From the NCBI GenBank assembly GCA_021202895.1, contig JAJQCE010000007.1, positions 31,853 to 95,852 on the forward strand: 64,000 bases of DNA. Reading direction: 5' to 3'. Position numbers and translations under genes: made by a program. Source of the DNA: Ruminococcus sp. GTDB lineage: Bacteria; Bacillota; Clostridia; Oscillospirales; Ruminococcaceae. The stretch's first letter is position 1; each line of letters opens with the position of its first letter. Positions 5,730 through 64,000 of this stretch are shown piece after piece. Under the pieces are notes generated by a model that saw nothing but the letters and a program-made list of their open reading frames with translations, did not search any database and was not told where the DNA came from.

Positions 5730-6149
5730 TGCGTGACTGCACTGGATATATATAATAATGTATCCAGAATGATATGCGATGAAGCGGGAGGTTGCCGATA
5801 AGTGCGTCGGGTAATTTCCGCCGAGTATGTCCGATTTTAAACCGGGCGGCTGTGATAACAAAGCGCTGTGTGCGCCGTACTTCTTGCGATAGGCAAAACG
5901 TTGTGAGCAATCAGGCTTGCGAATGTGTTGGTCTTTGAGGCTTAAACGGGTTCGTTTGTGTGAAGGAAAGCTTTTGCAGGATGAGTTTTGCTTTTGGTAT
6001 GGCAGCAGGAGTCTTTATTTTAAGTCCGTAAAGAGTTTGAAGGCTTTCGGAATTTTTTTATGAGGATACCGTGAAACACACGGGTCGGTTGTTAGTTGCA
6101 GAAAAAAGTCCCCGTACAATTTTATATTACGCACAAGGAGGCGATTTTA
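5730..6149 (+). promoter_or_regulatory. Long structured 5' leader of the S10 operon
   Basis: About 420 nt from predicted TSS to the rpsJ start. Contains CTGGATA...TATCCAG and a long bulged hairpin at 5784-5821 (GCGGGAGGTTGCCGA-N8-TCGGGTAATTTCCGC). Confidence 0.6.
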
Positions 6150-29007: not shown

Positions 29008-29680
29008 CGAAGTAACGTTTGAGGTAATAGCGCACATTCACAGCGACTTTAAAAGCAAATTCGGTGCGCCAAGACAGAGCGGACTTGTCGAGGAGCTTTC
29101 AGCGCAGATTGTCTTTGAGCCGAGGTTTTCCTCCGAGCTTCCCTTTAGGGGAATTGAGCAGTATTCGCACCTGTGGCTTGTGTGGCAGTTTTCGCTCTCT
29201 GACGCTTCAAAATCGCTTACCGTGCGCCCTCCAAGACTTGGCGGAAATAAGCGCATGGGAGTTTTCGCAACCCGCTCGCCGTTTCGCCCTAACCCTATCG
29301 GGCTTTCCTGCGTCAGACTTAAGGCTGTTAGCTTTGATGAGCGGCTGGGAACGGTGCTTGAGGTGAGCGGTGCGGACTTGATTGACGGCACGCCGATTCT
29401 TGACATTAAGCCTTATATAAAGTACACAGATTGCAGAGAGGACGCTGTCAGCGGTTTTGCTAGAAAACCGACACAAATTAAGGTTGAAGCGCCTGACAAG
29501 CTACTTGAACGTGTGAGCGAGGACAAGAGAGCGGCACTGCTCAGGGTGCTTGCCTTAGATCCAAGACCTGCGTATCATGACGATCCGAATCGCATTTACG
29601 GCTTTGGCTTCGCTGATTACGAGGTGAAATTTAAGGTAGACGGCGAGTTGCTCACTGTAGTTGACATTAAAATAGATTAA
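28982..29680 (+). CDS. trmO: TrmO/TsaA-family tRNA (N6-threonylcarbamoyladenosine(37)-N6)-methyltransferase
   Basis: FEVIAHIHSDFKSKFGAPRQSGLV...ATRSPFRPNPIGLSCVRL...DLIDGTPILDIKPYIKYTD. GTG start at 28982 inferred. Confidence 0.88.
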   Translation: MTKAAKANNEVTFEVIAHIHSDFKSKFGAPRQSGLVEELSAQIVFEPRFSSELPFRGIEQYSHLWLVWQFSLSDASKSLTVRPPRLGGNKRMGVFATRSPFRPNPIGLSCVRLKAVSFDERLGTVLEVSGADLIDGTPILDIKPYIKYTDCREDAVSGFARKPTQIKVEAPDKLLERVSEDKRAALLRVLALDPRPAYHDDPNRIYGFGFADYEVKFKVDGELLTVVDIKID

Positions 29681-29708
29681 AGCGATTGGTTTCCCAGTCG
29701 CTTTTTTG
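29681..29708 (+). terminator. Intrinsic terminator after trmO
   Basis: AGCGATTGG-ttt-CCCAGTCGCT then TTTTTTG. Confidence 0.85.
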
Positions 29709-29793
29709 TTTTGCAAACCTTAAAAAAATTGGTGGTTTTGCACTAATATTTACTTTAAATTTTGTGAAAAGATACGAAAATAATAATTTTGTG

Positions 29794-29822
29794 TTGACAA
29801 AAGCAAATATCTATGTTATAAT
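29794..29822 (+). promoter_or_regulatory. Consensus sigma-A promoter of the secreted-peptide operon
   Basis: Exact TTGACA-N17-TATAAT. Confidence 0.9.
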
Positions 29823-29852
29823 CTAATATATCAGGTATAACTGATATATTAG
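29823..29852. promoter_or_regulatory. Perfect 12-bp inverted repeat overlapping the predicted TSS (candidate operator or 5' mRNA hairpin)
   Basis: CTAATATATCAG-GTATAA-CTGATATATTAG immediately after the -10 box. Confidence 0.8.
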
Positions 29853-29877
29853 AAATATTTTTAAGGAGTTGATTTAA

Positions 29878-30261
29878 ATTAAAATCAAAAAAATGTTAGT
29901 AGCTGTGTCAACAGCAATAGTAATGGGAGTAAGCATGATGAGTATGGGAACTAGTGCCTATTCAGGCACTATCAGTCTGCGTTATGTATCAGGTGCATCA
30001 TCAAGCAACAAACTCACCAATTCTTGGACGTATTATACAACTAAAACGACGCAAACTATGACAATCTCATCACTTAGAAAAACCAGTTCATCTTCGGGGT
30101 ACACTGTTTTTAATCCAATGGGGATTTCTGGCAGTTCGACTTCAGCAGCTACATTTACAAAGTCAGGAGTTAAAACAGGTGTTCAAATAACAGCAAATGC
30201 TAAGTTGACGAACTATGCATCTTCTTCATATGTTTACGCTTCTGGTTCGGTTTCAGGATGA
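29878..30261 (+). CDS. Small secreted cationic Ser/Thr-rich peptide; apparent ATT start
   Basis: (M)KIKKMLVAVSTAIVMGVSMMSMGTSAYSGTISLRYVSG...; signal peptide; AAGGAG 9 nt before ATT at 29878. No D/E or Cys in the predicted mature peptide. Confidence 0.75.
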   Translation: MKIKKMLVAVSTAIVMGVSMMSMGTSAYSGTISLRYVSGASSSNKLTNSWTYYTTKTTQTMTISSLRKTSSSSGYTVFNPMGISGSSTSAATFTKSGVKTGVQITANAKLTNYASSSYVYASGSVSG

Positions 30262-30274
30262 TAAAGGAGTTTTT

Positions 30275-31468
30275 ATGAAAAAACCACTTCTTCTAGCAGC
30301 TTCACTTTTGCTTCTGACCTCCTGCGCTAGGTCTGACGTAGCTTCAAGCAACGAGAGCGAAGAAGAAGCCCTGAACGTTGAGCTTATCAGCGTTGACGAG
30401 CTTGCCGACGATGTGGAAGCTGCACTTAAAAAAACTCCGAGCAATTTTGTTTTGTCAAATTACATAAATGTTGAGCTGCCCGATGAGTATTACGAATGTG
30501 ATTTTCAACAGATTTCAGGTTTTGATGAAAATTATGAATCAATTTTTAGCTCGTTTTTTGACGAGGAAGTTTACAAGGACGCAGAGATAGTTCATGAAAC
30601 AACTATTGACGCTATGACCTCATATTCCTTTGAAAATGACGGTGATTTCTGCTGTGTGGGTGATAATGGATTTGTTGCCTTTTATTATTCCTCAGTGGAT
30701 GGCAGTCCTTTTGAAACCGGAATCAGAGCGGATATTTTTCATACTGACAGAGCCGATGCAGATTTAGACTATACATGGGTAACAAAGGATAACCGTATTA
30801 CCTTACGAGAGGTAGTTGAAAATGCGCAGACTTGGTTTGATGAAAGATATGCGCAGTTTGAACCTGATTATCAAATTTCAGTCAAGACGGTGGTTGCGAG
30901 AAAGCCTGACGAGGAAAGCAGCTACAGCGATTTTTATTATCAGGTTTTTGCCGAGAAAAAATACAAGGGCGTTGCGCTTGACAGCCTTATTCCGATGTAC
31001 AATGACGATTCAGATTTATTAAAATATCAAACCTACAGAGTTTGCCTATGGCTTGATATATACGGCGACGTACTCTGCATGACAAACGGCACAGGAATGA
31101 TAACGCCCACTGATGAAGAGAAGCTTACTGAAATTGTTTCGCTCTCAAGTGCAATTGACTATATCGAGGAAACATTTACCGATTTTGAAACTTCTCTTAC
31201 AATTAACGACATCAATTTAAAATACACCCTTTCACCGTCATACAACCCTAATCCTGATACCGATGCGGGCGAATACGATTCCGCTTACAAGGCGGGAAAC
31301 GAGGTTGACGGCAATCTTGTCTGGGAATTTGTAATAGACCTAGCGGATAATGAATTTTCCTTTGGCATCGATAACGACAGCTACGGCAATATTCAGAGAT
31401 TTATCTACGTTGACGCACAGACGGGAGAGATGGATTTTGAATTTAATGCCAGCAATCTTATACAGTAA
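30275..31468 (+). CDS. Acidic lipoprotein of unknown function
   Basis: MKKPLLLAASLLLLTSCARSD (lipobox LTSC); AAAGGAG RBS; 13 nt after the peptide gene; very D/E-rich. Confidence 0.85.
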   Translation: MKKPLLLAASLLLLTSCARSDVASSNESEEEALNVELISVDELADDVEAALKKTPSNFVLSNYINVELPDEYYECDFQQISGFDENYESIFSSFFDEEVYKDAEIVHETTIDAMTSYSFENDGDFCCVGDNGFVAFYYSSVDGSPFETGIRADIFHTDRADADLDYTWVTKDNRITLREVVENAQTWFDERYAQFEPDYQISVKTVVARKPDEESSYSDFYYQVFAEKKYKGVALDSLIPMYNDDSDLLKYQTYRVCLWLDIYGDVLCMTNGTGMITPTDEEKLTEIVSLSSAIDYIEETFTDFETSLTINDINLKYTLSPSYNPNPDTDAGEYDSAYKAGNEVDGNLVWEFVIDLADNEFSFGIDNDSYGNIQRFIYVDAQTGEMDFEFNASNLIQ

Positions 31469-31480
31469 ACCGACAGCAAA

Positions 31481-31504
31481 AAAACCGCAGAATCCTGCGG
31501 TTTT
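31481..31504. terminator. Bidirectional intrinsic terminator
   Basis: AAAACCGCAG-aatc-CTGCGGTTTT perfect 10-bp stem between convergent genes. Confidence 0.9.
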
Positions 31505-33184: not shown

Positions 33185-33430
33185 CTACCATTTTTCAATG
33201 ACCTCATCGCTTCTAGCTTCTATAATTGACATAATATTTCTCAAAACCTTTGGAGGTATTCGGGAATTGTTGTTGCACAAATAGCATTTGCCTGCTTTGG
33301 TTATCCAAATTTTAGTGGCGTTGCTTTTAGGAGAGCCTTGAGAAACATGAACATGAACAGGTTCTAGCGGCTCATTTTCATTTGCCCAAAAATAAACCCA
33401 GTATGAACCAATTTTAAAGAGTTGAGGCAT
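33185..33430 (-). CDS. DUF4160-like small protein
   Basis: MPQLFKIGSYWVYFWANENEPLEPVHVHVSQG...; matches the recalled DUF4160 pattern (EPxHVHV). Confidence 0.7.
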   Translation of the reverse strand: MPQLFKIGSYWVYFWANENEPLEPVHVHVSQGSPKSNATKIWITKAGKCYLCNNNSRIPPKVLRNIMSIIEARSDEVIEKW

Positions 33431-33686
33431 TTTCAAATTCTCCATCCTGAGAAAATTCAAGAATAAGATGAGCTACAGATTCGATGATTTTCTGATAATA
33501 ATTTATCTCCTCTGAACTAAATCCCTCTATATCCTCCCATGAATACTCAGGTAACCAGCATACAGCATTGTGAAAGCAGTCCGTTTCATCAGGCTTTTCA
33601 ATATAAACCTTAACCCTGCCGTTATCAAGCATTTGAGAGTGTACAATTTCTGTACCGTCAGATAATGTCAAAAACGGATACATCAT
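33414..33686 (-). CDS. Small protein paired with the DUF4160-like gene (DUF2442-like?)
   Basis: 90-aa ORF overlapping the downstream DUF4160-like start; family assignment weak. Confidence 0.55.
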   Translation of the reverse strand: MMYPFLTLSDGTEIVHSQMLDNGRVKVYIEKPDETDCFHNAVCWLPEYSWEDIEGFSSEEINYYQKIIESVAHLILEFSQDGEFENASTL

Positions 33687-49019: not shown

Positions 49020-49048
49020 ATTATACATCTACAAAGTCAAATTGTCAA
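49020..49048 (-). promoter_or_regulatory. Consensus promoter of rpoBC
   Basis: Minus strand TTGACA-N17-TATAAT. Confidence 0.85.
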
Positions 49049-51840: not shown

Positions 51841-51869
51841 ATTATATCACATTCCAAAACGCTTGTCAA
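51841..51869 (-). promoter_or_regulatory. Consensus promoter of rpmG-secE-nusG
   Basis: Minus strand TTGACA-N17-TATAAT. Confidence 0.85.
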
Positions 51870-63802: not shown

Positions 63803-64000
63803 GTTGCTTGTCCTTCTTTACAGATTACTAATTTGTATAAAGTATACCAAATATATTCATCTTGTCAAAATAAAAGATGAGCGGCATAAACTATAAATAT
63901 ATTATACCACATTTGAAATCGTTTGTCAAATAGAAATTGAAAAAATCAAACAAGTATATGCTTTACAAAAAATTAACTGAAAGTTAATTGACTTAAGGGC

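Follow-up and report, generated by a model that had tools for sequence, protein, structure and literature searches.

A candidate bacteriocin-immunity cassette pairing a small Sec-secreted protein with an acidic lipoprotein in Ruminococcus sp. and its relatives

Organization of the two-gene unit

The window analyzed here is a 64-kb stretch of one contig of a 2.1-Mb Ruminococcus sp. genome (G000:C21:31853-95852), and positions given without a locus name refer to it. Two plus-strand genes, PEP (29878-30261) and LIP (30275-31468), are enclosed by terminator-like hairpins: on the left the terminator of an upstream trmO-like gene (29679-29704, plus strand), an 11-pair hairpin with a T run, and on the right a bidirectional terminator (31481-31504) whose 10-pair hairpin was scored on both strands. 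A σA promoter at 29794-29822 on the plus strand, TTGACA-17-TATAAT with an extended −10 TG, matches the consensus at 12 of 12 positions. Perfect sites of this kind occur four times in the 64 kb and never in 100 shuffles; the other three (49020-49048, 51841-51869 and 63901-63929) all lie on the minus strand. The first-pass annotation had reported an exact TTGACA-N17-TATAAT promoter, terminators on both flanks and 13 nt between the genes, all of which were recovered: the PEP stop codon (30259-30261) and the LIP ATG (30275) are separated by 13 nt that hold an AAGGAG at 30264-30269. No transporter lies alongside the cassette, and no regulator was found nearby. Elsewhere in the window we noted an S10-Clostridia ribosomal protein leader at 5770-5852 (RF03136, 41.1 bits) and, at 33185-33686, two small minus-strand ORFs of 91 and 90 aa, which we presume to resemble a DUF4160/DUF2442 pair.

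A 12-bp perfect inverted repeat (29823-29852, plus strand) spans the expected transcription start, as either an operator or a 5′ stem-loop would. Among 165 loci it was present only in the window cassette and in a second copy of the unit on contig C27 of the same genome. The folded leader had a minimum free energy of −21.5 kcal/mol (z = −7.8 against shuffles). In the predicted structure of positions 29823-29900, the 12-bp hairpin is followed by another fold that puts the proposed ATT start codon in a hairpin loop and leaves the AAGGAG unpaired; this structure is possibly an operator or a means of translational control.

PEP very probably starts at the ATT at 29878 and not at the ATG at 29893 that opens the listed ORF, because its ribosome-binding site (AAGGAG, 29863-29868, plus strand) lies 9 nt before the ATT but 24 nt from the ATG, and because reading from the ATT restores the KIKK n-region of the signal peptide. 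The residues gained, IKIKK, bring the N-terminus (IKIKKMLVAVS...) into alignment with the MxxFKKK start of the relatives (MSNFKKKIAALGAA...); a start at 29893 would leave the signal peptide without a positively charged beginning.

Properties of the two proteins

Read from the ATT, PEP encodes a small, bacteriocin-like protein of 127 aa, presumably Sec-secreted; the reading draws on alignments and on purifying selection in the mature part. Inspection of the alignment gave the pattern of a signal peptide, with KIKK, a hydrophobic core and an AxA site followed by a mature part of about 100 aa. The signal peptide IKIKKMLVAVSTAIVMGVSMMSMGTSA (29878-29958, plus strand) is predicted to be cleaved after A27, a residue that fits the AxA pattern and is invariant in the family alignments. 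The 100-aa mature domain (29959-30258, plus strand) carries near its N-terminus a motif common to the mature peptides of the family, [NS]L[RH]Y-x2-GA[PS]SS-xN. It contains 8 K/R, no D/E and no Cys, in keeping with the Sec-type, cationic, cysteine-free protein described earlier, and 54% of its residues are S, T, N or Y. A single-sequence structural model of the mature protein was all-beta but poor. AlphaFold was run on the window proteins and one relative, and the models (pLDDT 43.6 for the peptide, and 38.4) were too poor for a fold search.

LIP encodes a 397-aa acidic lipoprotein, the proposed immunity protein, whose N-terminus (MKKPLLLAASLLLLTSC) includes the lipobox LLTSC at 30311-30325. 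Its match to LPAM_1 (E 0.017) is below the cut-off. The lipobox and a net charge of −59 agree with the strongly acidic lipoprotein of the first-pass annotation. At the C-terminus there is a faint resemblance to PepSY- and YycI-like domains (PF03413, PF09648; W-x-F ... V-D-A-x-TGE), in every case far below cut-off. One relative of LIP matches the first 109 positions of DUF6034 (PF19499) at 1.4e-5 and 24.6 bits, under the 27-bit cut-off, and LIP of the window does not match this family. As anticipated, neither protein could be assigned to a recognized family, since nothing passed any Pfam or NCBIfam cut-off; nor did we find a relative of either among solved structures. Viral contigs gave no relative, although the lipoprotein alignment offered no stretch conserved enough for scanning them. 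The opposite charges of the two proteins had been taken as an argument that they are partners. Every lipoprotein of the family is acidic, but the lipoprotein-linked peptides of the relatives range in charge from −1 to +10; opposite charge is thus not strictly conserved, and we dropped the argument.

Mosaic divergence of copies within the genome

Profile searches of the 2.1-Mb genome located the peptide at nine sites and the lipoprotein at seven or more. Contig C27 holds the second copy of the window unit, with the lipoprotein reading frame broken, and begins with a tandem array of three peptide-lipoprotein pairs and one extra lipoprotein gene; further relatives of the peptide adjoin FtsX-type permeases. 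These counts rest on draft assemblies with broken contigs, and features on C27 are frameshifted or run to the contig edge. Two broken lipoprotein frames were recorded, the one on C27 (L007, 5562-6742) and one behind trmO at the orthologous site of genome G003 (L014, 7300-8461), and either may reflect decay or a draft error. On contig C14 of the same genome, a lipoprotein-like gene and a complete ABC-2 transporter stand without a peptide gene (L064, 1818-5356); this unit is possibly a shared protection acting in trans for the window cassette.

The window locus and the C27 copy are identical over 273 nt (29676-29948). This stretch takes in the terminator of the trmO-like gene, which was duplicated together with the cassette; its presence there suggests that copying went outward from the window locus. 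Around the signal-peptide cleavage site the identity drops steeply, then recovers to about 100% over lipoprotein codons 1-90 and drops again. Values of dS follow the same steps, with 0.13 for the signal peptide, 1.22 for the mature part, 0.035 for codons 1-90 of the lipoprotein and 0.7-1.5 for those beyond. Within the C27 array, copies B and C are likewise 100% identical over 200 nt spanning promoter, leader and signal sequence; their perfect hexamers have the sequence and spacing of the window promoter, and after these 200 nt the two copies show no clear similarity.

In the diverged parts, where dS is at least 0.7, dN/dS between the window and its C27 paralogue is about 0.2-0.3, and both genes are therefore real. 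The mature part of PEP (dN 0.23, dS 1.22) is under purifying selection, and the ratio of 0.2-0.3 holds for LIP outside its homogenized N-terminus; positive selection was rejected on these values. The mosaic is best read as the result of gene conversion or exchange that homogenized the 5′ portions of old, constrained genes, and not as rapid mutation.

Recurrence of the pair and homology of the mature domains

The first-pass annotation had suggested a search for co-occurrence of the two genes in other genomes. Such pairs were found in at least six further genera, and the proposed pairing therefore withstood the search. In the genome under study they comprise the window pair, the C27 copy and the three tandem C27 pairs; G003, of the same genus, has one (L015), and other genera have them at L101, L105, L108, L143, L146, L153, L155, L156 and L172. 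Pairs that lie in tandem or were copied recently do not count as independent events, and the pairs in other genera are therefore the better evidence. Members of the family within the genus are concentrated in three genomes: this one, G003 and G002, the last of which has lipoproteins only. At the site behind trmO in G003, the promoter and the lipoprotein gene are present and the peptide gene is absent. The lipoprotein was found in 31 of 249 genomes of the taxonomic family and is nearly absent outside it (two weak matches), and the peptide profile matched in 31 of 398 genomes, some of the weak matches spanning the signal peptide only.

With a profile of the peptide only, we examined 15 hit neighborhoods, selected on score and small ORF size without knowledge of the partners. 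In each of them, every peptide that could be evaluated was followed by a lipoprotein gene or a permease/ABC unit; L144 stops at a contig edge. Homology across genera extends to the mature domain. In a leave-one-out comparison restricted to mature parts, with its near-copy excluded, the window peptide scored 21.0 bits against a maximum of 6.5 in 200 shuffles, and for 14 of the 17 lipoprotein-linked peptides the margin over the best of 200 shuffles of the same peptide was at least 1.7 bits. L153 exceeded its shuffles narrowly, L108 and L101b failed, and these three are assigned by context, not by sequence.

As a held-out test, the mature-only profile (A7) was run on 394 genomes of the order and returned one new locus, G308:C27, whose neighborhood had contributed to no profile. 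It reads, in one direction, ECF σ factor, anti-σ factor, small secreted ORF, PEP, LIP (1e-64), two ABC-2 permeases and an ATPase. That two unrelated genes came under one promoter by accident is hardly credible: nothing speaks for it beyond the absence of a known family, and it is refuted by co-occurrence, that is, by the same-order pairing in several genera and the successful held-out prediction.

Transporters and regulators of related operons

Four layouts were distinguished. In the first, to which the window cassette belongs, the peptide gene is followed by the lipoprotein gene and often by genes for two ABC-2 permeases and an ATPase (also L008, L101, L105, L143, L146, L155, L156 and L172). 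The second consists of the peptide, two FtsX-like permeases and a MacB/LolD-type ATPase (L149, L154; L065 and L073 without an adjoining ATPase), and the third of the peptide, two other lipoproteins, a NatA-type ATPase and a large permease (L066, L075, L147, L148 and L150; L145 has lipoproteins only). The fourth (L142) joins the peptide to a 661-aa TIGR01654-like protein and a TIGR03608-like ATPase. The peptides of L065 (4558-4998), L073 (251-667) and L149 (5459-5893), each followed by two FtsX-like permeases, form a sister group with the motif TTNYYVTxSKGTNKTS and matched no curated family tested.

The statement that no dedicated transporter is adjacent holds for the window locus and fails for the relatives, which have ABC-2 or FtsX transporters. 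The two ABC-2 permeases and the TIGR03740-like ATPase missing from the window locus stand beside L105, L143, L156, L172 and the C14 lipoprotein. The ABC-2-type ATPase has its best NCBIfam match in TIGR03740, lantibiotic protection (E 6e-51, 173 bits against a cut-off of 310), and two FtsX-type ATPases in TIGR03608, L_ocin_972_ABC (244.5 and 231 bits against 254.85); the L142 permease matches TIGR01654, bact_immun_7tm, at 1.8e-11, below cut-off.

These transporters bear on whether the secreted protein is a matrix or adhesin subunit with the lipoprotein as its membrane chaperone. Such a role in a surface or biofilm would suit mature parts that are rich in S, T, N and Y and predicted to be beta-rich, and fimbrial matches, though very weak and non-significant, were seen for a few members. 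However, PEP has no anchor, sortase motif or repeat and is a single small domain in length, other branches carry FtsX/MacB transporters nearest to bacteriocin families in the place of the lipoprotein, and orphan lipoproteins persist without the peptide; we regard this role as improbable.

The peptide gene is co-inherited with its adjacent partner, and partner genes also occur without it (L014, L016, L064, L096-L098, L103 and L107), as would be predicted of orphan immunity genes. Because a lipoprotein with an ABC-2 transporter but no peptide is common (L064, L096, L098, L103, L107), one could instead propose that these proteins serve defence only, guarding against foreign antimicrobials, with the small protein as an accessory decoy or binding partner and not a toxin. 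A decoy leaves unexplained why a 2.1-Mb genome has nine peptide loci whose mature domains differ, and why peptide genes head their operon downstream of a strong promoter; we consider this account very improbable.

The fullest operons begin with ECF σ/anti-σ or agr genes and continue with the peptide, the lipoprotein, two ABC-2 permeases and an ATPase. Genes for an ECF σ factor and an anti-σ-like protein lie directly upstream in L098, L103, L111, L142, L156 and L172, of which L098 was the one scanned with family models, and L143 has a complete agr set directly upstream (AgrD above cut-off, AgrB-like and AgrC-like). In several genera, an extra small secreted ORF of about 140 aa accompanies the ECF σ and anti-σ-like genes before the peptide (L142, 3132-4940; L148, 12900-14706; L156, 7320-9064; L172, 7203-8931).

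The six loci with ECF σ and anti-σ-like genes, together with the weak PepSY-like similarity at the LIP C-terminus, are what would be seen if the secreted protein were an autoinducer or a ligand reporting envelope state, sensed by LIP and the ABC-2 transporter and relayed to the ECF σ/anti-σ pair or to agr-like kinases. Lipoproteins and ABC modules of Bacillus are able to sense peptides, which counts in favor of such a system. On the other hand, proteins of about 100 aa and of folded type are large for signals, L143 has its own AgrD signal beside PEP, the window cassette is without a nearby regulator, and neighboring copies within a genome have widely different mature domains behind a homogenized promoter and signal peptide. 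We consider a signal and its receptor unlikely.

Comparison with characterized systems

The closest tested system, published in 2025, is mediterrocin of Mediterraneibacter gnavus, an 89-aa Sec-secreted bacteriocin of the lactococcin 972 family encoded with a DUF1430 protein and an ABC protein (PMC12345188). Like that family (PF09683/TIGR01653), the window group has a small, presumably Sec-secreted and unmodified protein with a mature part of 89-100 aa, cysteine-free in the window member, beside a membrane or ABC protection system. It differs in having a lipoprotein instead of the DUF1430 protein; the DUF1430/TIGR01654 protein and ABC ATPase are absent from the window locus, and only the distant L142 branch has their counterparts, the 661-aa membrane protein and the TIGR03608-like ATPase. 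Neither the window peptide nor 14 relatives matched PF09683/TIGR01653. Homology to lactococcin 972 was rejected after three tests: PF09683 found nothing anywhere in the genome, hhalign of the peptide with a true member gave a probability of 1.1%, and that member scored about 1 bit on the mature-domain profile.

In nisin producers, the lipoprotein NisI binds nisin and the NisFEG transporter expels it (PMC8538875). LIP resembles NisI and SpaI in carrying a lipobox, and its relatives resemble NisI/SpaI with LanFEG in combining a membrane lipoprotein, two ABC-2 permeases and an ATPase with its best match in TIGR03740 in one operon. Unlike the LanI/LanFEG case, the proposed target here is an unmodified 100-aa protein and not a lanthionine peptide: the adjacent product has no Cys, and neither a lanthionine synthetase gene nor any other modification gene was seen near the window cassette. 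Moreover, LIP is about 400 aa long and belongs to no library family, the ATPases of its relatives fall below the TIGR03740 cut-off, and the window copy lacks the transporter. DUF6034 comprises lipoproteins of a size comparable to LIP, but the sub-cut-off match is confined to the N-terminus of one relative, and all matches to PepSY/YycI-type domains are far below cut-off. Because the features that define the lactococcin 972 and LanI families are lacking, we say that the cassette probably works like these systems, not that it is one of them. The cassette family is large, with shuffled copies and ABC transporters, and is absent from the protein-family libraries and papers searched; in the open-licence literature we found no paper that names DUF6034 or describes this family.

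Discussion

Judged from sequence comparisons, the window unit is probably a minimal bacteriocin-immunity cassette, composed of an unmodified Sec-secreted bacteriocin and a NisI-like immunity lipoprotein. PEP would leave the cell through Sec and be cut after residue 27, releasing a cationic, Ser/Thr/Tyr-rich, probably beta-structured and unmodified protein of 100 aa. The mature protein may inhibit close competitors at the cell envelope, where its target, by analogy with lactococcin 972, could be lipid II. LIP, a lipoprotein facing outward from the producer's membrane, would capture cognate PEP before it reached that target, as NisI does with nisin, and in the fuller loci a LanFEG-like ABC-2 transporter, or an FtsX/MacB-type one in other branches, may add or supply protection.

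Such a cassette accounts for the pairing, the protective-type transporters, the quorum-sensing and stress-σ neighbors, the orphan lipoproteins and the varied mature domains. The first-pass annotation had proposed a functional pair, for example a bacteriocin with lipoprotein immunity; this idea is now well supported by pairing across genera, by ATPases nearest to bacteriocin-protection families and by the agr genes of one locus, though it has lost the argument from opposite charge. Against it stand the ATPase matches below curated cut-offs, the absence of a family model naming PEP or LIP and the missing transporter at the window cassette. In addition, LIP genes outnumber peptide genes and often lie beside ECF σ/anti-σ genes, which a sensing role would also fit, and dN/dS points to constraint, whereas toxin-immunity pairs sometimes show positive selection.

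More tentatively, the family may represent a new class of Sec-secreted bacteriocins, widespread among Ruminococcaceae-type Clostridia, unrelated to lactococcin 972 and defined by the mature motif. Its toxin and immunity domains would vary between copies while gene conversion maintained the identity of promoter, signal peptide and lipoprotein N-terminus, and a single genome would in this way hold an arsenal of some nine such proteins. Little is known about the bacteriocins that gut and cellulolytic Ruminococcaceae secrete. If the proposal is true, the motif and its partners would offer a searchable signature for protein antibiotics and immunity proteins of core gut bacteria, and the natural sets of pairs, several per genome, would allow direct tests of toxin-immunity specificity.
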